Positions 21,486 through 62,730 of a stretch of DNA of 64,000 nt are shown here, in pieces. Each line of letters starts with the position of its first letter. Positions within the stretch are counted from its first letter, which is position 1. A program made the position numbers and the translations under genes. This DNA is from Balneola sp. Its GTDB lineage: Bacteria > Bacteroidota > Rhodothermia > Balneolales > Balneolaceae. The notes beneath the pieces are model-generated. The model had not been told where the DNA came from. It did no database searches and saw only the letters and a program-made list of their open reading frames with translations. Where the stretch lies: the NCBI GenBank assembly GCA_002696035.1, contig NZQV01000015.1, positions 1 through 64,000 on the forward strand, written 5' to 3'.

Positions 21486-23918
21486 TTACTTCTTTACACT
21501 TACACCGTTTGGTGATTTAGAAACTGAACTATTCTGGCCTAATAACTTTTCGATCTGTGCCAGTCTGTTTTCGAGCTCATTTTGCTTATCAGCGTTGGCC
21601 TGAAGTGCTGCATTCTCATTTTGCAGATTCAGGATCTGAGTATTCAGCTCTTTCACTGCTTCGATGAGTACGGCAGTCATCTGTGCATAGTTGACCGATT
21701 TCATACCATCTTCATCGGTGTAAACGAACTCAGGGAATACTTCTTCAACTTCCTGAGCGATCAAACCCGTTTGCTGTTCACTGGATCTTTTTTCGTCCTT
21801 CCAGTTATAGGTTACTCCACGCATTTGAAGTGTTTTCTCTAGCCCTTCTTCCAATGTTTCGATATTGGTTTTTAGACGACGGTCTGAAGTTTGGTTTACA
21901 GAAGTTGCAGTAATGGTTCCACTATTTCCACTGATATTAATGGTCTGATTCCCTCCGGAGTACATTTCAAAAATAGAACCACCATTAGAGTCATGATTTA
22001 ACACAAAACCATTTGTATAAGACTCTTGTCCACCACTGATACTACCTGCAGAAATCTGGTTATATTGGTCTTGGTTGGTATCTCCTGATATAATCAAGGA
22101 ACCGCCATTAGAGACGATATTTCCGCTTTCACCATCCAGGTTAATCATTTCTTGCGATGTTTGACCAGTGATGTTGGTTTTTAGCAGAGAAAGTGACGCC
22201 CATTCGTCGGTACCGTTACTTGCTACTCCTAAGAAAGCGTTGTTTAGGTACCAGCCATTGCCATCTTCAGTACTGCCAAAAAGCTGAAAAAATGGAAGAT
22301 CGGTATTTTCCCATTGTTGTCCACCCATTTGAATATTTGGAGTGGAATTTCCGTACAGCATCATTTCTACAGACTCTCCCGTTGGATCGTTGCCGGCAGG
22401 ATCGTTGGCTACATTAATGTCAAAAATATTTCCCTTGCCATCAATTCCTCGCTGTGTAGTTTGCAGGTGGAAGAAAGGTACTTCATTCTCGTTATCATTC
22501 TTACGGGCACCGAAATTCACCAACTGTACATAAGGATCCGCAGAAGACCCTTCCATAAAGAAGTAAGGAAGACCATCATTCCAGGCTGCAAATCCGGTTA
22601 ACGTTGCGCCGGTAAATTCCCCTGCCTCATCGTAGCCAACGATCTGCATGAAACCACCTTCGTTATTGGTACCGAACCATCCAATATTATTGTCATTGGT
22701 GTCGTAGTAATACATGTTACCTTTGCCATTAGTATTGGTAGCCATAACTGCTGCTCTGTTTCCATCAGCATTGTTTAACTGAAGTCTTCTAACATCTGTG
22801 AGGTTAGTAATATCACCGCCGGCTAATGGTTCTCCATTCACCGTAAAATTACCGTTAACATTTACATCCCCATCAAAATAACCGGCGTAATTTTCAACAC
22901 CGTCCCAGGCTGCTCCATACACTCCATAGTTAATTCCAGGTCCCCATGCTCGTCCTGCAACTCCATAGTTTTTTGTTGAATCTGTAGAACCTGCATGAGA
23001 CAATCCTGCAACTCCGTAATTCACTTTTCCGGCATCTCCGAAAGCTTCAGCCTCAAGACCGGAGTTATTCCAAGTATTTCCTGTAGCACTTCCTCTGACT
23101 CCAAAATTTATGGAACCTTCTCCATAGCCTTCACCTTCGTCACCATTGCCTTCACCAAAAGAGTAACCTAATGCTCCATAGGTGTATTTTGCTTTAGATG
23201 CCGCTTGTCCATAAATACCATATCTGCTTCCGGTAGTAGCCTCTCGATTTATTGCTGAGCCGAGTACACCTAATTGTGCTCCCGTTCCAATACCGGAGGC
23301 AACTCCATACATACCATACATATTGTTTGAATTCGTTGCTGTGGAAGTTGCGGTCCCAGTCACTCCATAGTTTACTCCATCGGTACTTGCATTCCCACGA
23401 ATGGCTGTTAGCCCTTCAGTTCCTGTAGCATTTACGATAAAGGATGTATCGCCTTCACTCGAGTTGAGTTCAATATTTGTCAACAATCCGCCACCACCGG
23501 AGCCATTCACCACATCCTGAGCCACCAATGCATAAGGCACGGAAAGCAATCGGGTGGTTCCCAGTTCTTCATATTCTTCTCCGCCGGCAGGGTCTATCTC
23601 CAGCTTCACATAGTAGTTGTCGGATGCCCAGTTGATACCTGAAAAATTATCTTCAGAAGTTCCTTCTCCGATCACGATCTGGAATGAACCCACTCCGGAT
23701 GTGGTAGGATTCTGAACCTCAGTATATACTGCTGTGCCATCTTCGGCACCCTGGATCACGCTTACGCGCACACCCAATTCGGTATTGGTGATCAGCTCAC
23801 CATTGGCATCTCTGGCTACCGCCTGGAAATTGAAACCTTGCGGCACCTGGGCCATAACATCTGTTGCGAATAAAAGTATCGCAACCAAAAACATCATTTT
23901 TGTAACTAACTTATTCAT
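21486..23918 (-). CDS. Secreted protein with C-terminal S74 (endosialidase chaperone-like) domain
   Basis: This is a protein of about 810 aa with a signal peptide (KLVTKMMFLVAILLFATDVMAQ). An N-terminal domain (VPQGFNFQAVARDANGELI, about 25-150) is typical of Bacteroidota surface proteins. A long Gly/Asn/Ala-rich repetitive region follows (NYGVTG, NYGVAG, NYGVYG units). The C-terminal intramolecular-chaperone domain begins TSDRRLKTNIETLEEGL (about 695) and ends in a Leu/Asn coiled coil (LNTQILNLQNENAALQ). S74 domains trimerise phage tail-spikes and usually cut themselves off at the Ser-Asp junction; SD is present. ATG 23918 is chosen because AAGGA sits 9 nt upstream; the frame also has an ATG at 23933. 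It follows a small T9SS-sorted gene by 19 bp in a leftward operon. A trimeric surface fibre is likely; ligand unknown. Confidence 0.85.
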   Translation of the reverse strand: MNKLVTKMMFLVAILLFATDVMAQVPQGFNFQAVARDANGELITNTELGVRVSVIQGAEDGTAVYTEVQNPTTSGVGSFQIVIGEGTSEDNFSGINWASDNYYVKLEIDPAGGEEYEELGTTRLLSVPYALVAQDVVNGSGGGGLLTNIELNSSEGDTSFIVNATGTEGLTAIRGNASTDGVNYGVTGTATSTATNSNNMYGMYGVASGIGTGAQLGVLGSAINREATTGSRYGIYGQAASKAKYTYGALGYSFGEGNGDEGEGYGEGSINFGVRGSATGNTWNNSGLEAEAFGDAGKVNYGVAGLSHAGSTDSTKNYGVAGRAWGPGINYGVYGAAWDGVENYAGYFDGDVNVNGNFTVNGEPLAGGDITNLTDVRRLQLNNADGNRAAVMATNTNGKGNMYYYDTNDNNIGWFGTNNEGGFMQIVGYDEAGEFTGATLTGFAAWNDGLPYFFMEGSSADPYVQLVNFGARKNDNENEVPFFHLQTTQRGIDGKGNIFDINVANDPAGNDPTGESVEMMLYGNSTPNIQMGGQQWENTDLPFFQLFGSTEDGNGWYLNNAFLGVASNGTDEWASLSLLKTNITGQTSQEMINLDGESGNIVSNGGSLIISGDTNQDQYNQISAGSISGGQESYTNGFVLNHDSNGGSIFEMYSGGNQTINISGNSGTITATSVNQTSDRRLKTNIETLEEGLEKTLQMRGVTYNWKDEKRSSEQQTGLIAQEVEEVFPEFVYTDEDGMKSVNYAQMTAVLIEAVKELNTQILNLQNENAALQANADKQNELENRLAQIEKLLGQNSSVSKSPNGVSVKK

Positions 23919-23937
23919 AGGGTTGTCCTTCATTCAA

Positions 23938-52119: not shown

Positions 52120-52191
52120 TGATTTGGTGAAGGGTGATATAATGTAGATTTACAATAGCAGCCCCACTATATCACCAAATCACCATATCAC
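52111..52191. repeat. 20-bp inverted repeat spanning both stop codons of a convergent pair
   Basis: GTGATATAGTGATTTGGTGA (52111-52130) and TCACCAAATCACCATATCAC (52172-52191) are reverse complements with one mismatch, separated by 41 nt. TAG of the rightward gene (52117-52119) and TGA of the leftward gene (52188-52190) are inside the arms. It can act as a shared transcription stop, though no T-tract is present. Confidence 0.88.
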
Positions 52192-55100
52192 TTCTCAACT
52201 CCGGGCACATTCTGCGGCTCATTATTTTGCCACCAGAACGTCGGTAATTCCTTTTGTTTAGGGAATACTTCATCCAGGGTTTCGGCTTCGTACATATATC
52301 CGTTCTTCAGGATGAATTCCAGGTCTTTCGAGTTACGGATATCATCTAAAGGATTTGAATTCAAGATCAAAAGATCGGCCAGTTTACCTTCCTCAATAGT
52401 CCCAAGATCGGTATCAAGGCCAATGGCTTCGGCGCCCTGAATGGTAGCCACTTTCAGAATATCATGCTCTGAGATTCCTCCGGACTGCATTGCCCAAAGC
52501 TCCCAATGATAACCAAGTCCCTGCAGCTGGCCATGACTTCCAACACCTGCACGTCCACCGGCTTCAAACAGATCTTTTACAAATACAGATTGCTCTTCAA
52601 ATACATGCTCTTCTTTCATGAACCAGCCGGAGGTACGTCGACGGGTACGCTCATCTAAATTGTTATGTGGCATGAACCGCTGAAGTTTTAGATCATCATG
52701 GGGACGCTCTGTGGCGTAGTAGTAATTCTCCGCCCACGGACCGCCATATGCCACCAGCAAGGTTGGTGTGTACACCGTTCGAGAAAAAGCGACCAGGTCG
52801 ATCACATCCCTGTAAAGCGGAAAGACCGGAAAGGAGTGCTCATGTCCTGGATAACCATCAATTACCTGCGTCAGATTTTCTTTGAAATCGAGGGCGCCTT
52901 CCGTAGTTGGCATCAGTTCCATCTCTTTGGCAGCCTGAATGATCCACTGCCGCTGCTCACGATTACCGGCTCCATACATCTTGATGGTTTTGGTGTCGTA
53001 ATAATCGCTGTAGCGCTTCATGACCTCTCTGGCGTGGTCGAGGTCTTCAATATTCTCGCTGCTGAAAACACCCGGGCCTGTTGAATACACTCTTGGGCCC
53101 AGCAGTTCTCCGGCATGAACCAGATCCTGATACGTCAGCACATCCGTAGTCGCCGTTTGCGGATCTCTTGTGGTGATAACGCCATACGCCAGATTCGTCA
53201 GGTAGCTCCAAAACTCACCCCGATGCAAATTCACCGGATGGCGGAAATGCGCGTGCGTATCTACAAAACCGGGAATGATGGTCTTGCCGGAAACATCTTT
53301 GATATCTGCACCGGAGGGAATCTCCACTTCACCGCGAGCGCCAACTCCAACTATGCGATTGTTACGAATCACCAAGTCTGCATTTTCGATGATCTCATCA
53401 CCATCCATGGTAATAACGGTAGCACCTCGAAGTACCAGTTCTCCCTCAGGAATGTCGCGATCGGCCATCACACTGATCTTGATCTCCTGAGGTTTATAGC
53501 CTTCATCTTCCTTCTCTTCTTCTTTGGCTTCATCCGCTTCTTCCCCACTTTCTTCTTCAGGATCGGACTCCTCTTCCTCCTCCGCTTCCATTTCTTTTGC
53601 AGCTTCTACGCTGTCTTCATAAGCTTCAGCTGCCTCAAGATCATAGATCACATGGGCATTACCAATAGACCAGTGCGCACGATCGGCATCCCAGCTCCAG
53701 GCCGGAAATTGTCCACCTATATCCGTAAGCTTTTTAGTGGGGAAAGAACTTGAAGATCCGCCAACACGTATGCTCGGAGCCTCACCCCCCACCTGCGGAA
53801 CCGTAACCACAAACAGATCGGTACCAACCTGAGCCAGCGCCTGATCTCCTTCCGGAGCCATACGGATCCACGAAGCTCTGCCGCCTCCACTTCGGGTTAC
53901 TTCCAGATGCTCTTTCTCATCGGTTCCATCCCAGCGAATAGAAACCAAACCACTCCAGCTTGAGAGGTAAATTCGATCCGATCCCTTCACAAAATGAGGA
54001 TTGGAACGGCCGTTCGTGTACGAGATGAAATTATTCTCACTTCCATCCGCATCAATCCAAATCAGGTCACTTGTACCTTGGAACGCAGAACGTCGCGTGG
54101 CATTTCGGAAATCCTGCGGCTGCCCTTTTATCACCACAATACGATCTCCGTCAGTATTCCACACCGGATCTTGAAATACGCCTTCTTCTTCATTCAGCTG
54201 CTGCAATCTTCGACCGTTCGGGCGGACTTTATACAGTTTTCCACTCTCAGGAGTCCACGTCACAAATGCGATCCATTCTCCATCGGGAGACCAAACCGGC
54301 TGCGCCTGCGTTTCATCCAGATCTACCAGTTTCTGTGGTTCCCCGTCAGGGAGCTTCATCGTATAAATTTCATTTAGTGCGGTAAACGCGATCTGGCTTC
54401 CATCAGGAGAAGGAACGGCATCGCGAATTTGCGTGATCTCAAACTCCGGAGTGTCTTCTATCGGATAATCAAAATCCAGTTCGGGTCCCAGATCAATACT
54501 TCCACTCACACGGAATGGAATTTCTTCGGCATCGCCCCCATCAATAGGCAGCTTCCAGATCTTGCCACCGTAAGAAGTCACTACAAAATTATTATCCGGG
54601 GTGAAGGACATTCCGGGCAGTACATCTCTCGAAGCCCGTGATTCCTGATCATCATGCTGAACCGGATAAGCCAGCCAGCTTTCGTTACCTGTTTCCAGAT
54701 CTCTTTTCACCAAACCGGTGTGTTCATCATGGCGCGTTCCATACACCAGCCATTTTCCATCATTGGAGAGCGTTGAACGGAATGAAGATCCGTATCGATC
54801 GCTTTGCGTTGTGATCTCGCCCGTTTCCCGATCATAGGTAGCGATCTGATACTGCGGAAGAGATGCATTGTAATTCCAGGTTCCTGATCTTCTTGAAAAC
54901 CAAACATATCTCTCATCGGCACCAAAAGCTCCTTCGGTCATACGGAGATTCCCGGGTTCATCCACCAGCGGTGTTCCAGAACCTCCTTCAATATGATACA
55001 TCCAGATCTTGTGGTTCCCCGGATCATCTTTGGAGGCAATAACATAAGTGCCATCGGGTGTCCACTCGGGCGATTGATATTCATTGTCTTTGCCTTTGGT

Positions 55101-55523
55101 TAACTGCTCGGTTTCTTCGGTGTCTATATCATAGATCCAAACGCCTTCTCCTCCCGAAGCATCCGATATAAAGGCAATTTTAGTTCCAGCCGGGCTATAG
55201 CGAGGCTGACTATCGAACTGCATTCCTTTCGTGATCTGTGTAGCTTCTCCACCTGAAACAGGGATGGTGTACAGGTCTCCCAAAAAGTCGAATACAATGG
55301 TTTCTCCGTCCGGACTCACATCCAGCGAGATCCACGAGCCTTCGGTCAGATCAAAAGAAAACTCCCGGCCGGGCTCCAACGGTAGCTCATTGAGCTCTTC
55401 GGTTTCGGTAGAATCGGATTCGGTTTCCTCATCCTGAGCTATCACCAGATCTGAAGTGAACGAAAGAATGAAAACCGTCAGGAATAATTTCCAAAAGGTC
55501 GATGCAGTATCTAAAAATCGCAT
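52188..55523 (-). CDS. Secreted TolB-like beta-propeller / amidohydrolase fusion
   Basis: This is a 1111-aa exported protein. The signal peptide (FWKLFLTVFILSFTSDLVIAQ) is followed by WD40-like PD40/TolB propeller repeats up to about 640 (SPAGTKIAFISDASG, SPDGSQIAFTALNEI, SPDGEWIAFVTW). Next comes a Glu-rich linker of about 50 residues (EEEEESDPEEESGEEADEA). The C-terminal metal-dependent amidohydrolase (about 690-1090) has ENADLVIRNNRIVGVG, the metal site FVDTHAHFRHP (about 755-765), GHEHSF, GVGSHGQLQGLG and GTIEEGKLADLLILN. Such fusions are annotated as amidohydrolases or prolidase-like dipeptidases in Bacteroidota. The substrate is not evident. It is transcribed alone, with both parts well preserved. 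Confidence 0.92.
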   Translation of the reverse strand: MRFLDTASTFWKLFLTVFILSFTSDLVIAQDEETESDSTETEELNELPLEPGREFSFDLTEGSWISLDVSPDGETIVFDFLGDLYTIPVSGGEATQITKGMQFDSQPRYSPAGTKIAFISDASGGEGVWIYDIDTEETEQLTKGKDNEYQSPEWTPDGTYVIASKDDPGNHKIWMYHIEGGSGTPLVDEPGNLRMTEGAFGADERYVWFSRRSGTWNYNASLPQYQIATYDRETGEITTQSDRYGSSFRSTLSNDGKWLVYGTRHDEHTGLVKRDLETGNESWLAYPVQHDDQESRASRDVLPGMSFTPDNNFVVTSYGGKIWKLPIDGGDAEEIPFRVSGSIDLGPELDFDYPIEDTPEFEITQIRDAVPSPDGSQIAFTALNEIYTMKLPDGEPQKLVDLDETQAQPVWSPDGEWIAFVTWTPESGKLYKVRPNGRRLQQLNEEEGVFQDPVWNTDGDRIVVIKGQPQDFRNATRRSAFQGTSDLIWIDADGSENNFISYTNGRSNPHFVKGSDRIYLSSWSGLVSIRWDGTDEKEHLEVTRSGGGRASWIRMAPEGDQALAQVGTDLFVVTVPQVGGEAPSIRVGGSSSSFPTKKLTDIGGQFPAWSWDADRAHWSIGNAHVIYDLEAAEAYEDSVEAAKEMEAEEEEESDPEEESGEEADEAKEEEKEDEGYKPQEIKISVMADRDIPEGELVLRGATVITMDGDEIIENADLVIRNNRIVGVGARGEVEIPSGADIKDVSGKTIIPGFVDTHAHFRHPVNLHRGEFWSYLTNLAYGVITTRDPQTATTDVLTYQDLVHAGELLGPRVYSTGPGVFSSENIEDLDHAREVMKRYSDYYDTKTIKMYGAGNREQRQWIIQAAKEMELMPTTEGALDFKENLTQVIDGYPGHEHSFPVFPLYRDVIDLVAFSRTVYTPTLLVAYGGPWAENYYYATERPHDDLKLQRFMPHNNLDERTRRRTSGWFMKEEHVFEEQSVFVKDLFEAGGRAGVGSHGQLQGLGYHWELWAMQSGGISEHDILKVATIQGAEAIGLDTDLGTIEEGKLADLLILNSNPLDDIRNSKDLEFILKNGYMYEAETLDEVFPKQKELPTFWWQNNEPQNVPGVEK

Positions 55524-58660: not shown

Positions 58661-61600
58661 TTACCAACCGGGCGATATCTGAAAACCGAATACGCCCGTT
58701 TTATCAGGGCGCTGTAGCGGGAATGCATAGTAGAACTCCGTGATCAGATAGCCGAGTATGTTTACCCTCATGCTTAATCCTGTACTAAAAACGGAAACAT
58801 TTGCTGAACTTTCGTCGGTAGTCCATTTGAAATCCGGTGCACGGTCATTGCTCCATGCTATTCCAGCATCAAAGAAAGCCGAAAGGGTACTCGGAAACAT
58901 TCGTGAGCGAAACAAGGCAAGTTCCTCAATGCCAAGCACCGGCAATCGGAGTTCTACATTGGCCACACCAATACGGCTTCCAAACAACCGTTCGTATTCC
59001 GGACAGCCATCTCCCGGCGAGTCGCTGCATTCCTGGGCAGAGAATGTATTCAAACTGTATCCTCGTATCAGTCTTGGATTTCCAATAAACGAGGGATTGA
59101 GTCGGTTATCATCAGAATCCTGAAAATATCTTCCGCTATGTAAAGCCCTGAATCCCAATGTCACAGGCTTCATATAAAAGTATTTCCGGTAATCTGCCAG
59201 CGCCTGTACAAATGTCAGCGAACCCGTTGTCGGTTCAACCTCTAAGCGCATACGGTGTCCATCTATAGGTCCCGTAAAAGTGGCTATCGAGTTATCCTCA
59301 ACATAAGCTGCAGAGGCATTGAAAAGATTCGACGGAGAAGGCTCTGCGCCTTCAGCATCAGAAATATCTCGCTTAAAGGGCTGACCGAATTCATTCAAAT
59401 AGACCTGTCTTCGTTCTGTTCTGTACCATAAGTGTGTGTAACCAGCTGAAAACTCAAGCCGCTGAATATTGGTAAGTGGATACAATCCTAACGCAGAAAT
59501 TCTTTCCCTGAATACGCGTTGCCTCAGGTTGATTACCGAAACCGGGGCAATTACTTGTTCACCATTAAAAGAGGTAGTGTCGTTTCGACTAATTCCTCTT
59601 CGTGAACTTCTGAAAACTTGGTGACTCAAAGATCCCCCCCAAACAAAACGATTATCTCTGTTCAGATAACCAACTTGTCCGGCTGCATCCTTAATACGCC
59701 CTTGTATTCTCAGGGTTGTAAACAGCTGGTGCTGATTCAGCATATCGCTAAAGCTTGCGCTCACACCACCGGCCATTCCAGCTCCAAACTGACTGGAAAC
59801 ACCTACTCCACCCCCACCGGAAATATAATCGAGCGTTAAAGTGGGTTTGTAGTCCCGGAGTCCGAAAGAGGTATCGGAAGGGAGATTCGTCATCGGGTTT
59901 TTCAAGTATGATGACACTATTTGATTGCCGGATACACCACTCCCGGGCAGAATATCTGAAGTCATCATCGCGGAGCGTTCATCTATTAGTTCGCCTGCTT
60001 TTTTGTCTTCACTGATACTGTAAACACTGTAGTTTGACTGGTCAAAGACCGTAACCATCAGCTCACCGGTATTTGGTGTCACCGTGATCACCGGAGATAA
60101 TTTACTGATGCCGGATATTCCTGTTGAAACACTCGTCACCCGATATCTGATTCCCTCTGTAAGATCATAGCGATACACATCACTAAAACCCTCATGGTCC
60201 GATACATAATAGATCGAACTTCCATCTTCGTTATACTGCGGGTTGATATGTTTAGAATCTTCGAAGGCAGGCAGTAACTCAATTTCGGAGGACTCAATAT
60301 CCATCACTGCGATCTTTGTTTCACCGAAGGTCATATCATCTAGGCTCGTGTCTGTTCCCCGGTCTGTGATAAACGCTAAATTTTGCCCGTCAGGCGACCA
60401 CGTGGGCTGAAGATCTGAATAACTGTCCTGCGTCAGGTTTCGTAGAGAATCCTTTTCAAGATCATAAATATACAGGTCGGTATATCCTCCATCGGCTCCT
60501 GAGAAAGCAATTTTCTTTCCATTGGGTGACCATGCAGGATTGGTGATGGCATCCACCTCCCCAAATTTAAGACGCCTGTTTATTTTCCCGTTGTTCACAT
60601 TTATGATGGCGATCTGATTATCTCCTTCCGCAAAAACGACTACTGCAAACCGCTTACCATCAGGCGACCAGCTTCCTGAGGACTCCACAAAACGAAGTGC
60701 ACTCAGGTGTGGATCCATGCTTGTGGAAGTCAGCTTACGGATGATCTCTCCGGTCTCGGCATCAGCCAGAAAAAGTTCGATCGAAAAAATATTCTTTTCA
60801 GAAATAAATACTACATATTCCCCATCGGGGCTCAGCGCCGGAGACACATTGAGGGTCCCGGTGTTTTTCTTTTCACCTAATATCAATGTTCCCACATCGG
60901 CAGGTTTGGTTCGAGTCTCTATATCCTCTTCATATCTCTCCCGAATGGATTGCTGCCAAAGGGTTGAAACAGAATCTCTTGAAATCCCCAGTGTATTCTT
61001 GAATCCCTTTTTAATGCCTTTTTTTGCAGAATTAACGTACAATTCTGAAACCTTATCATCTCCCCACTCTCCTGCAATAAAGGTCCATACAGAATGTCCG
61101 TACCGATATGGAAAATATTCACGGGAATTGTTGAGGTCTTTTATGGAAGGTAGGTCATCATTCTGAAGAGCATCCCGCAACCACATAGCAGTATGGCTAT
61201 CTTCAGGACCTACGGATAAATACTCTGCCATCCCCTCAATAAACCAAAGAGGTAACTGACTGGTAGCACGAATTCCGCCAATTTCATCCTGGCGGGCAAT
61301 GTCATATTGAAACGCATGAACCAGTTCGTGACCTAATACATGATTGGTACTTTGGTTGGCTTCTGCGAAAGGCATCACCACCCGGTTGCGTATTCCTTCG
61401 GTAACCCCTCCGGTGCTCACTCCCACCCTTGGAACAATACTATTTTGCTGAAAGTCGGCATGGTTGGCATAAATGATAAGTGGATTGGGCGAGGAAAAAC
61501 TGTGATTCAACATCGCCGAATGCCGTTGATACCACCTCTCCGAGAGTTTCCCAAGGTCTTTTACTGCCTTTGCTTCCTGAGGGTAATGATAGATATTGAA

Positions 61601-61738
61601 ATGTTCTGTTTCCAGGATCTGGAAATCAAAATCCTCATACTGAACCGGATATCTTCCAAAATATTGAGCTTCAGAAACAAAAGGACACAGGGTTAAAATT
61701 ACGGCTAAGAAGCTTAGAGATAATTTCCTCGAACACAT
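58661..61738 (-). CDS. Exported zinc-protease / beta-propeller / Omp85-like barrel fusion
   Basis: This is a 1025-aa outer-membrane protein with three parts. After the signal peptide (SLSFLAVILTLCPFVSEAQ) comes a gluzincin-like domain (about 30-280) with the zinc motif GHELVHAFQYD (about 135-145) and the third ligand in IEGMAEYLS (about 168). PD40/TolB-like propeller repeats follow (about 290-600: SPDGEYVVFISEKN, SPNGKKIAFSGADGG, SPDGQNLAFITDRG). The C-terminal 16-strand-like barrel (about 640-1025) has GGGGVGVSSQFGAGMAGG, the Omp85 loop motif LIRGYSLNTF, and a final strand TGVFGFQISPGW. This architecture is found in Bacteroidota-related and Gemmatimonadota-type genomes, usually annotated by only one of its parts. 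Protease activity and the object it handles at the outer membrane are inferred only. It has no companion genes. Confidence 0.9.
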   Translation of the reverse strand: MCSRKLSLSFLAVILTLCPFVSEAQYFGRYPVQYEDFDFQILETEHFNIYHYPQEAKAVKDLGKLSERWYQRHSAMLNHSFSSPNPLIIYANHADFQQNSIVPRVGVSTGGVTEGIRNRVVMPFAEANQSTNHVLGHELVHAFQYDIARQDEIGGIRATSQLPLWFIEGMAEYLSVGPEDSHTAMWLRDALQNDDLPSIKDLNNSREYFPYRYGHSVWTFIAGEWGDDKVSELYVNSAKKGIKKGFKNTLGISRDSVSTLWQQSIRERYEEDIETRTKPADVGTLILGEKKNTGTLNVSPALSPDGEYVVFISEKNIFSIELFLADAETGEIIRKLTSTSMDPHLSALRFVESSGSWSPDGKRFAVVVFAEGDNQIAIINVNNGKINRRLKFGEVDAITNPAWSPNGKKIAFSGADGGYTDLYIYDLEKDSLRNLTQDSYSDLQPTWSPDGQNLAFITDRGTDTSLDDMTFGETKIAVMDIESSEIELLPAFEDSKHINPQYNEDGSSIYYVSDHEGFSDVYRYDLTEGIRYRVTSVSTGISGISKLSPVITVTPNTGELMVTVFDQSNYSVYSISEDKKAGELIDERSAMMTSDILPGSGVSGNQIVSSYLKNPMTNLPSDTSFGLRDYKPTLTLDYISGGGGVGVSSQFGAGMAGGVSASFSDMLNQHQLFTTLRIQGRIKDAAGQVGYLNRDNRFVWGGSLSHQVFRSSRRGISRNDTTSFNGEQVIAPVSVINLRQRVFRERISALGLYPLTNIQRLEFSAGYTHLWYRTERRQVYLNEFGQPFKRDISDAEGAEPSPSNLFNASAAYVEDNSIATFTGPIDGHRMRLEVEPTTGSLTFVQALADYRKYFYMKPVTLGFRALHSGRYFQDSDDNRLNPSFIGNPRLIRGYSLNTFSAQECSDSPGDGCPEYERLFGSRIGVANVELRLPVLGIEELALFRSRMFPSTLSAFFDAGIAWSNDRAPDFKWTTDESSANVSVFSTGLSMRVNILGYLITEFYYAFPLQRPDKTGVFGFQISPGW

Positions 61739-61873: not shown

Positions 61874-62062
61874 TTACTCTATAGTCCCATCTCTTTCGAT
61901 TCGATTTCGATCAGATAAGGCTTTGGCTATTCGTTCCGTATTATCTGCAATGCGCTCGTTGGATCGCACAAAACGTACCGCTAACCACACAATGAGCCCG
62001 ATAATAACCAGGTAAAGAATAACAGGAATAATAAAAGCAGCAGAGCTTACAGCATTGAACAT
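61874..62062 (-). CDS. Small single-helix membrane protein
   Basis: This 62-aa protein has one N-terminal transmembrane helix (AAFIIPVILYLVIIGLIVWLAVRFV) and a short charged, probably coiled tail (RSNERIADNTERIAKALSDRN). Similar small proteins with a helix and a charged tail are common next to other envelope genes, but I do not recognise a family. Coding is supported by length, composition and a plausible topology only; no strong ribosome-binding site is evident. Confidence 0.5.
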   Translation of the reverse strand: MFNAVSSAAFIIPVILYLVIIGLIVWLAVRFVRSNERIADNTERIAKALSDRNRIERDGTIE

Positions 62063-62700
62063 AACAGTATGAGATTATTTTGTTGGATGTTAGTTACCCT
62101 TTAAATAATCTTTCCCATTTTAAACTGCAAGAGGCAATGTAGAATTCACGTTATAAGGAAAAGAGGATGTCTTGAGTAAATCCTTTTTATAGAAATCATT
62201 TAAATCCCCGAATGGGGATTAATACGAATAACCACGGGTGGAGTAAACAAAGTTTACGCAACCCGTGGAAAGTATAAAAATAAAATACGGAATCCTGAAG
62301 GGGTTCAACTTTTGGGATAGTGCAACACTGATTGTCAAGCTCAAGCATCCGGTTCAACCCCTTCAGGGTTGCAGGTTTTGAGGTTTTCAGTTTTCTCCGG
62401 GTTCCGCAGGCTCCACCCGGAGTTATTCATGTTGTATCCTTTCAGGATGAGAAATGGGGAAATTTAAAAAATGACCCCGTAGAACGGGCAGCTCGTCCAT
62501 TTCCAGATCAAACAGGTAGTCAATTATCAAATATAGGCGGACAAGCTCTCCGCCCTACGTGCTTGTGGAATACATCTAAACTGAACACGAATAACGCAGA
62601 TGGTGCGGATAGTCACAGATCATAGTTAACATTAAAACCAGCGGACATCGACTCGATCTGTGTTCTATTCCATAAGACTCTACAGTATAAAACAAAAAAA
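62063..62700. other. Intergenic region packed with hairpin-type repeats
   Basis: This 638-bp gap has at least four palindromes: AATCCCC/GGGGATT (62203-62220), CCACGGGT...GTAAAC/GTTTAC...ACCCGTGG (62233-62267), CCTGAAGGGGTT/AACCCCTTCAGG (62291-62368) and CTCCGGGT/ACCCGGAG (62396-62423). A dispersed GGCGGACA/CTCCGCCC block follows (62535-62560). No gene is supported in it. Confidence 0.75.
62203..62425. repeat. Cluster of palindromic repeats (REP/MITE-like)
   Basis: Four to five separate palindromes within 220 bp, described in the region entry. They recur as sequence types rather than exact copies, and no transposase gene is present. Confidence 0.7.
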
Positions 62701-62730
62701 CCCCGCCTCGGAAAACCGAAGCGGGATCTT
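62696..62730 (-). terminator. Terminator of dnaK
   Basis: CCCGCTTCGG and CCGAGGCGGGG (minus-strand order) form the stem, followed by a T-run (the A-run at 62694-62700 on the plus strand). It directly follows the dnaK stop. Confidence 0.9.

Follow-up and report, generated by a model that had tools for sequence, protein, structure and literature searches.

A predicted gluzincin peptidase, TolB-like propeller and BamA-like barrel in a single chain from Balneola

Proteins that place a beta-propeller before an Omp85 barrel were described by Heinz and Lithgow in 2014 as the WD40-Omp85 class and were likened there to a fusion of BamA and BamB (PMC4104836). The available parts of that paper make no mention of a peptidase within the class. 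Here, we analyze a gene of Balneola sp. that lies in a stretch of 64,000 nucleotides, hereafter the window (positions 1 to 64,000 of contig NZQV01000015.1, assembly GCA_002696035.1). Structure models make it near certain that its 1025-residue product joins three parts in one chain: a gluzincin peptidase resembling families M9, M30 and M1, a TolB-like propeller and a 16-strand BamA-like barrel. Likely to be new are the presence in this class of an M9/M30-like gluzincin with intact catalytic residues, the split of the class into several lineages, and one lineage that lacks the active site as a unit and keeps the barrel motifs.

Other described systems offer points of reference, given here as they stand in the available sections of the papers cited. 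The 2014 study also defined an 'Omp85-metalloprotease' class, by the profile PF00149 (PMC4104836). In Pfam, this profile is Metallophos, with six matches in the window genome and none at this gene, and the published subfamily is probably a class of phosphoesterases. This suggests that the metalloprotease-Omp85 label rests on a Metallophos domain, and that the Omp85 proteins which do carry a peptidase with intact catalytic residues probably belong to the WD40 class. The window protein carries a TolB-like propeller N-terminal to its barrel and very likely belongs to the WD40-Omp85 group. In 2024, the authors who studied PlpD still counted Omp85 proteins carrying a metalloprotease or WD40-like domain at the N-terminus among those not well characterised (PMC11116518). 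The same source describes PlpD, an Omp85 enzyme fusion whose enzyme domain is periplasmic and which is said to be without a lateral gate, and TpsB, which exemplifies Omp85 transporters with one client. Among unfused proteins, the zinc peptidase BepA, probably working at the BAM complex, either promotes LptD or degrades it (PMC8423444), and acts on clients stalled at a late stage (PMC13067283, section 5.1), while BamB is a propeller at BamA (PMC13067283).

An earlier, sequence-only reading of this DNA was aware of no functional study of the architecture. We likewise found none for the protease-propeller-barrel arrangement in the literature covered, most subscription papers and preprints lying outside that coverage; the barrel and propeller, however, had already been described as WD40-Omp85 (PMC4104836). 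No mention of WD40 and no Omp85-peptidase fusion was found in the available parts of PMC12611786 and PMC12578637.

Three predicted domains and an intact active site

The gene occupies positions 58661 to 61738 on the minus strand and, by the window's list of reading frames and their translation, is one intact open reading frame encoding 1025 amino acids (ATG start; stop codon at 58661-58663). The sequence-only reading had placed it at exactly these positions, strand unstated, and had recognized a zinc protease, a propeller and an Omp85-like barrel, a three-part reading that is correct and is now backed by models and fold comparisons. The full-chain structure prediction it had called for was run with AlphaFold2 on 60 sequences and is confident (pLDDT 89.1, pTM 0.86); a pTM of this height across 1025 residues would fit one rigid assembly.

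The peptidase domain spans residues 25-285 (60884-61666; all features of the gene are on the minus strand). Within HELVHAFQYD (residues 137-146), the HELVH motif at residues 137-141 (61316-61330) holds the expected zinc ligands H137 and H141 and the general base E138. The expected third ligand, E168, opens EGMAEY at residues 168-173 (61220-61237), and FPYRYG at residues 209-214 (61097-61114) sets Y211 at the spacing of a catalytic tyrosine. The 73 residues from E138 to Y211 equal the distance from E242 to Y315 in lugdulysin, residues named in the title of its PDB entry. TGGVTE at residues 109-114 (61397-61414) forms the strand before the HExxH helix and may serve as the substrate-binding edge strand. 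HExxH with a downstream glutamate in a gluzincin fold places the domain in clan MA(E), and the term 'gluzincin' used in the sequence-only reading is upheld by the same features together with the tyrosine at lugdulysin spacing.

The isolated domain was predicted with similar confidence on its own (pLDDT 90.3). Foldseek searches with this model returned M9 collagenases first and M1 aminopeptidases next, and fold comparison gave a Z of 17.1 over 229 residues with Vibrio/Grimontia collagenase and of 16.5 with lugdulysin, an M30 peptidase. A PDB sequence search with the peptidase profile gave no relevant match, a DNA polymerase at E 0.8 being the best, so structural relatives of the peptidase were found by fold comparison only. 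Among sequence profiles, Peptidase_MA_2 matches the isolated domain at 35.8 bits, above its cut-off of 32.4, and the M9 collagenase profile PF01752 stays below its cut-off there (22.4 versus 26 bits). A Pfam scan of the full-length chain, run to E 1, lists neither Peptidase_MA_2 nor Omp85, and the peptidase appears in it as BSP (24.4 bits, cut-off 23.8). Among 60 relatives at E 0.01, BSP matches 60 and Peptidase_MA_2 matches 40.

All five residues (H137, E138, H141, E168 and Y211) are present in 101 of 101 proteins of class A, the class of the window protein. This set joins 21 proteins found without a motif filter to 80 others, the best of 566 relatives from named genomes; L072 and L100 are truncated at contig ends, and L090 and L143 have the same sequence. 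The patterns used to retrieve those 80 included the zinc motifs, so the full count is biased, and the unbiased figure is 21 of 21. These counts support an active site whose expected catalytic residues are intact, and zinc-dependent proteolysis is predicted.

The barrel comprises residues 635-1025 (58664-59836) and ends in PGW. The model has 16 long strands between residues 635 and 1023, and the closest structure is that of Deinococcus BamA (Z 23.4 over 314 residues); the barrel rows of the comparison are taken up by structures of BamA, TamA and Sam50, at Z 20-23. Failure of the barrel prediction had been named as a refutation of the sequence-only reading, and no such failure occurred. In the genome search, Omp85 PF01103 scores 59.5 bits at this gene (cut-off 24); the NCBIfam BamA model gives the full-length chain 41.5 bits against a cut-off of 297. 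RGY at residues 892-894 (59057-59065) lies in loop 6 between strands 11 and 12, E929 (58952-58954) in strand 12, and FFDAG at residues 955-959 (58862-58876), an instance of FxDxG, in strand 13. Loop-6 RG[YF], the beta-12 glutamate and beta-13 FxDxG together form the Omp85 loop-6 lock. In the 101 class-A rows, G893, E929 and D957 are invariant, G959 is found in 100 and R892 in 97, with histidine in the other four. The 16 strands, the profile and these three elements identify the barrel as Omp85, in agreement with the 'Omp85-like' of the sequence-only reading; a POTRA domain is lacking, as in those Omp85 classes of 2014 that have none. In the fold comparison, the model ranges of several BamA and Sam50 rows start in the peptidase; with only the ends of these ranges given, this is a weak hint that the peptidase may lie beneath the barrel.

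Between these two parts lies the TolB-like propeller, residues 284-576 (60011-60889), with six blades by strand count. PD40 scores 83.3 bits in the full-length Pfam scan (cut-off 20.9), and the closest fold is TolB (Z 26.1 over 248 residues), with DPP4 and S9 peptidases also among the matches; the TolB equivalog TIGR02800 stays below its cut-off (123.4 versus 343.15 bits). A linker of 58 residues with two helices (residues 577-634; 59837-60010) leads to the barrel. It holds no recognizable POTRA domain, nor does the Pfam scan show one anywhere in the chain.

Just behind the signal peptide, residues 25-34 (61637-61666; consensus QYFGxNKVQY) form the conserved mature N-terminus, one of the most conserved stretches of class A, with Q25, F27 and G28 present in 101 of 101 rows. 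Model confidence there is low to middling. An FG-x-x-R form or a close variant recurs in 12 of 12 proteins of the protease-dead clade described below. Candidate roles for the stretch are targeting, docking or regulation.

Relatives and a protease-dead clade

In the phylum of the window, 70 of 118 genomes gave a match at E 1e-30. In that scan, 14 class-A proteins, the window's included, matched over nearly their whole length, and most other matches end near residue 545 because their barrels have diverged. The best 80 of the 566 relatives include proteins of Gemmatimonadota, Bacteroidota, Balneolota, Rhodothermota, Acidobacteriota, Zixibacteria and Calditrichota. Within the window's own family, Balneolaceae, class A is found in 9 of 92 genomes, counting the window's own and one fragment. 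The protein of one family member (G122) is identical to that of Fodinibius roseus, in keeping with this family assignment. Two family members (G160 and G163) branch with Rhodothermia-type proteins, which suggests that class A was gained more than once. In each of the 39 family genomes with a completeness of at least 90%, Peptidase_MA_2 passes its cut-off with a nearly full-length match, and, with two exceptions, the frame is ~1100 codons long; judged as a group rather than singly, these frames are assigned to the class-B type. A scan of viral contigs with a single protein confirmed no relative, and PHROGs gave 0 families at E 0.001.

In Pfam scans of six paralogues, every one showed PD40 and Peptidase_MA_2; Peptidase_MA_2 passed its cut-off in five of them and Omp85 in two. 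The window genome itself holds a class-A, a class-B (L118) and a class-D protein (L119). Pfam lists Omp85 in neither L118 nor L119; L118 aligns at 43% over its own length with L121, which does pass Omp85, and the barrel of L119 is putative. In an unrooted tree of 63 rows, built with the catalytic columns left out, classes A, B and C and a protease-dead group each fall on one side of a branch (support 89 for B and 100 for the others), and class D is a single long-branched row.

The protease-dead group emerges from 46 different paralogues (duplicate rows L168, L173, L177 and L178 left out of residue counts and tree). All five catalytic residues are kept in 34; the other 12 lack H137, E138, H141 and Y211 jointly, and 3 of these 12 have a glutamate at 168. 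The 12 proteins (L132, L160-L162 and L179-L186), which belong to other families of the phylum, form one group in the tree. Conservation of the zinc ligands among relatives, on which the sequence-only reading had staked itself, thus holds throughout class A, filtered or not, and breaks down outside it in 12 of 46 paralogues. The joint absence of HExxH and the tyrosine supports these residues being one catalytic unit. Since the site is intact in all other paralogue rows and in outside gluzincins, we infer that it was lost in this clade and not primitively absent.

The barrel motifs have fared differently from the active site. RG[YFWL] and FxDxG are both kept in 12 of 12 dead-clade proteins, against shuffled expectations of 18% and 22%, respectively. 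In a count that left out L173, L177 and L178 only and kept L168, active class-B rows had RG[YFWL] in 18 of 28 and FxDxG in 27 of 28, and FxDxG was found in 3 of 6 class-C rows and in the single class-D row not at all (0/1). The dead clade is nearest class B by full-length similarity: its member L132 aligns with the active class-B protein L121 from residue 11 to the end, barrel included, at 25% (E 7e-85). Two genomes (G037 and G064) each carry a dead protein alongside an intact class-A protein. As the clade is without the active site and L132 is nevertheless aligned over its full length, cutting would seem unneeded for the scaffold's job there, which suggests that the scaffold has a use besides cutting.

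Proposed function and competing readings

The sequence-only reading had proposed a protein-handling machine at the outer membrane. In the same vein, we put forward, tentatively and at a little under even chances, a periplasm-facing triage factor of the outer membrane, like BepA, BamB and BamA in one chain. The propeller and the zinc peptidase would face the periplasm as one body, joined to the BamA-kind barrel. Propeller and barrel seam would bind unfolded or stalled outer-membrane or exported proteins, after which the client would either be helped into or across the membrane by the seam or be cut by the peptidase. The periplasmic side, the type of client and the triage itself are what we infer. 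The proposal draws on the BamA-type barrel with its conserved loop-6, beta-12 and beta-13 residues, the TolB-like propeller, the intact peptidase site, the confident model of the whole chain, and the dead clade that keeps both barrel motifs. BepA, probably at the BAM complex, and PlpD, with its periplasmic enzyme domain, serve as precedents.

Several observations weigh against this proposal. PlpD, by the available account, is without a lateral gate, and Omp85 barrels therefore do not have to act as insertases. None of the nine POTRA matches in the window genome falls at this gene. Class A is absent at E 1e-120 from nine of nine other genomes of the window's genus. The genome also encodes an Omp85-barrel protein with five POTRA matches, seven Omp85 matches in all (this gene included) and four Peptidase_M48 matches, none of them at this gene; with such proteins present, the gene looks accessory and fills no visible gap. 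No conserved operon partner, and among the neighbors no client, was found in the loci examined, many of which have short flanks. In the dead clade, PD40 passes its cut-off in 3 of 12 proteins and Omp85 in 0 of 12, low scores that indicate much divergence, and the apparent intactness of propeller and barrel there draws on the L132-L121 alignment and two short motifs, not on profile scores.

The main rival takes the barrel as an anchor only. The protein would then be a periplasmic peptidase tethered to the outer membrane, with a propeller that gates substrates in the manner of S9/DPP4-type enzymes. Its substrates would be peptides, lipoproteins or cell-wall-linked proteins. We rate this reading only a little less probable than triage. 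PlpD, the nearest studied Omp85 enzyme fusion, is said to be without a lateral gate (PMC11116518), the propeller matches DPP4 and S9 peptidases, all class-A rows keep the catalytic residues, and there is no POTRA. A mere anchor, however, would not need the loop-6 and beta-13 motifs that the dead clade keeps in 12 of 12 proteins, and class A conserves the residues of the Omp85 motifs almost as strictly as its zinc ligands.

Self-secretion of the type Vd kind is unlikely. Here, the barrel would export the peptidase and propeller to the surface, where the protease would feed the cell or attack neighbors. M9 collagenases are secreted, and class A is patchy in occurrence with changing neighborhoods, both of which would suit such a role. 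However, a folded part of ~550 residues would need to cross a 16-strand barrel, and the whole chain is modeled confidently as a single unit. PlpD was itself initially read in this way, and its domain was later shown to be periplasmic (PMC11116518). A dedicated secretion or maturation system, in which the peptidase trims one client during export, is more improbable still: one-client Omp85 transporters of the TpsB type exist (PMC11116518), but no neighbor is conserved among seven family loci and the commonest neighbor family appears in 15 of 81 loci and on the opposite strand, although flanks are often short and a client could lie elsewhere.

If the triage proposal is extended to the relatives, these would form a widespread Omp85 branch with fold-or-destroy triage in one chain, in which an M9/M30-like peptidase and a propeller replace POTRA and one branch has become a protease-dead assembly factor. 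We consider this wider claim less likely than not. Were it true, the active classes A and B and their dead relatives would be a natural series for the role of a protease at a BamA-type barrel. How BepA cleaves, and how it recognizes stalled clients, were called unknown in a 2026 review (PMC13067283, section 5.1, in its available part). A single chain with both activities, accompanied by natural dead relatives, would make the decision between folding and destruction testable in one protein.

Setting of the gene and comparison with known systems

The chain opens with a Sec signal peptide assigned by eye (residues 1-24, with SEA before the cleavage site and Q after it; 61667-61738), in which no lipobox was seen; a leader precedes (Q)YFG in class-A rows too. 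The gene tsaD lies downstream on the same strand and dnaK upstream across a gap of ~1 kb. A terminator scan found a terminator-like hairpin of 15 pairs after dnaK (62697-62730, minus strand), one of 11 such sites against 6.0 expected by shuffling, and because of this hairpin the gene is probably its own transcription unit. The gap also holds a 62-codon reading frame (61874-62062, minus strand) with one hydrophobic stretch by eye and no Pfam match at 1e-5 and, between 62180 and 62560, a 12-base inverted repeat seen by eye, CCTGAAGGGGTT / AACCCCTTCAGG.

Neighbors were clustered for the loci of 80 relatives and the window, many of which end close to the gene. The sequence-only reading had suggested a search for conserved clients or neighbors; clients were sought among neighbors only, and the loci examined yielded no conserved neighbor. 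The largest cluster, MlaD-like by eye, occurs in 15 of 81 loci, where it lies downstream and on the opposite strand, and was rejected as an operon partner. None of the neighbors in seven family loci matched the last 24 kb of the window save one gene of L147, at 26% to an efflux-pump gene there; among themselves, only L141 and L142 share neighbors, hisF/hisE-like by eye. A role as stand-in for a missing BepA or BamA was also dropped, M48, Omp85 and POTRA proteins being already in the genome.

Elsewhere in the window, another propeller-enzyme fusion is encoded nearby at 52188-55523 (minus strand), a protein of 1111 residues in which a TolB-like PD40 propeller precedes an amidohydrolase domain. 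An 815-residue protein at 21486-23933 (minus strand) ends in Peptidase_S74 (chaperone of endosialidase), a domain familiar from phage tail spikes and found here on a bacterial contig.

Compared with the WD40-Omp85 class, the window protein has the same TolB-like propeller before an Omp85 barrel and the same lack of POTRA; it differs in its peptidase, none being mentioned for that class in the available parts of its description. With the patatin-Omp85 protein PlpD it shares an enzyme domain fused N-terminally to an Omp85 barrel, whereas PlpD, as described in the available text, is a lipase and a homodimer with one POTRA domain and no propeller. M9 collagenases and the M30 peptidase lugdulysin have a like peptidase fold, lugdulysin also the like Glu-Tyr spacing, and are secreted proteases without a barrel. 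TolB and BamB have a like propeller fold, and are separate proteins. BepA, like the peptidase proposed here, is a zinc peptidase at an Omp85 barrel whose client is promoted or degraded (PMC8423444); it is of family M48, whose profile does not match the window gene. BepA and BamA are separate proteins, whereas the window protein carries its own barrel.

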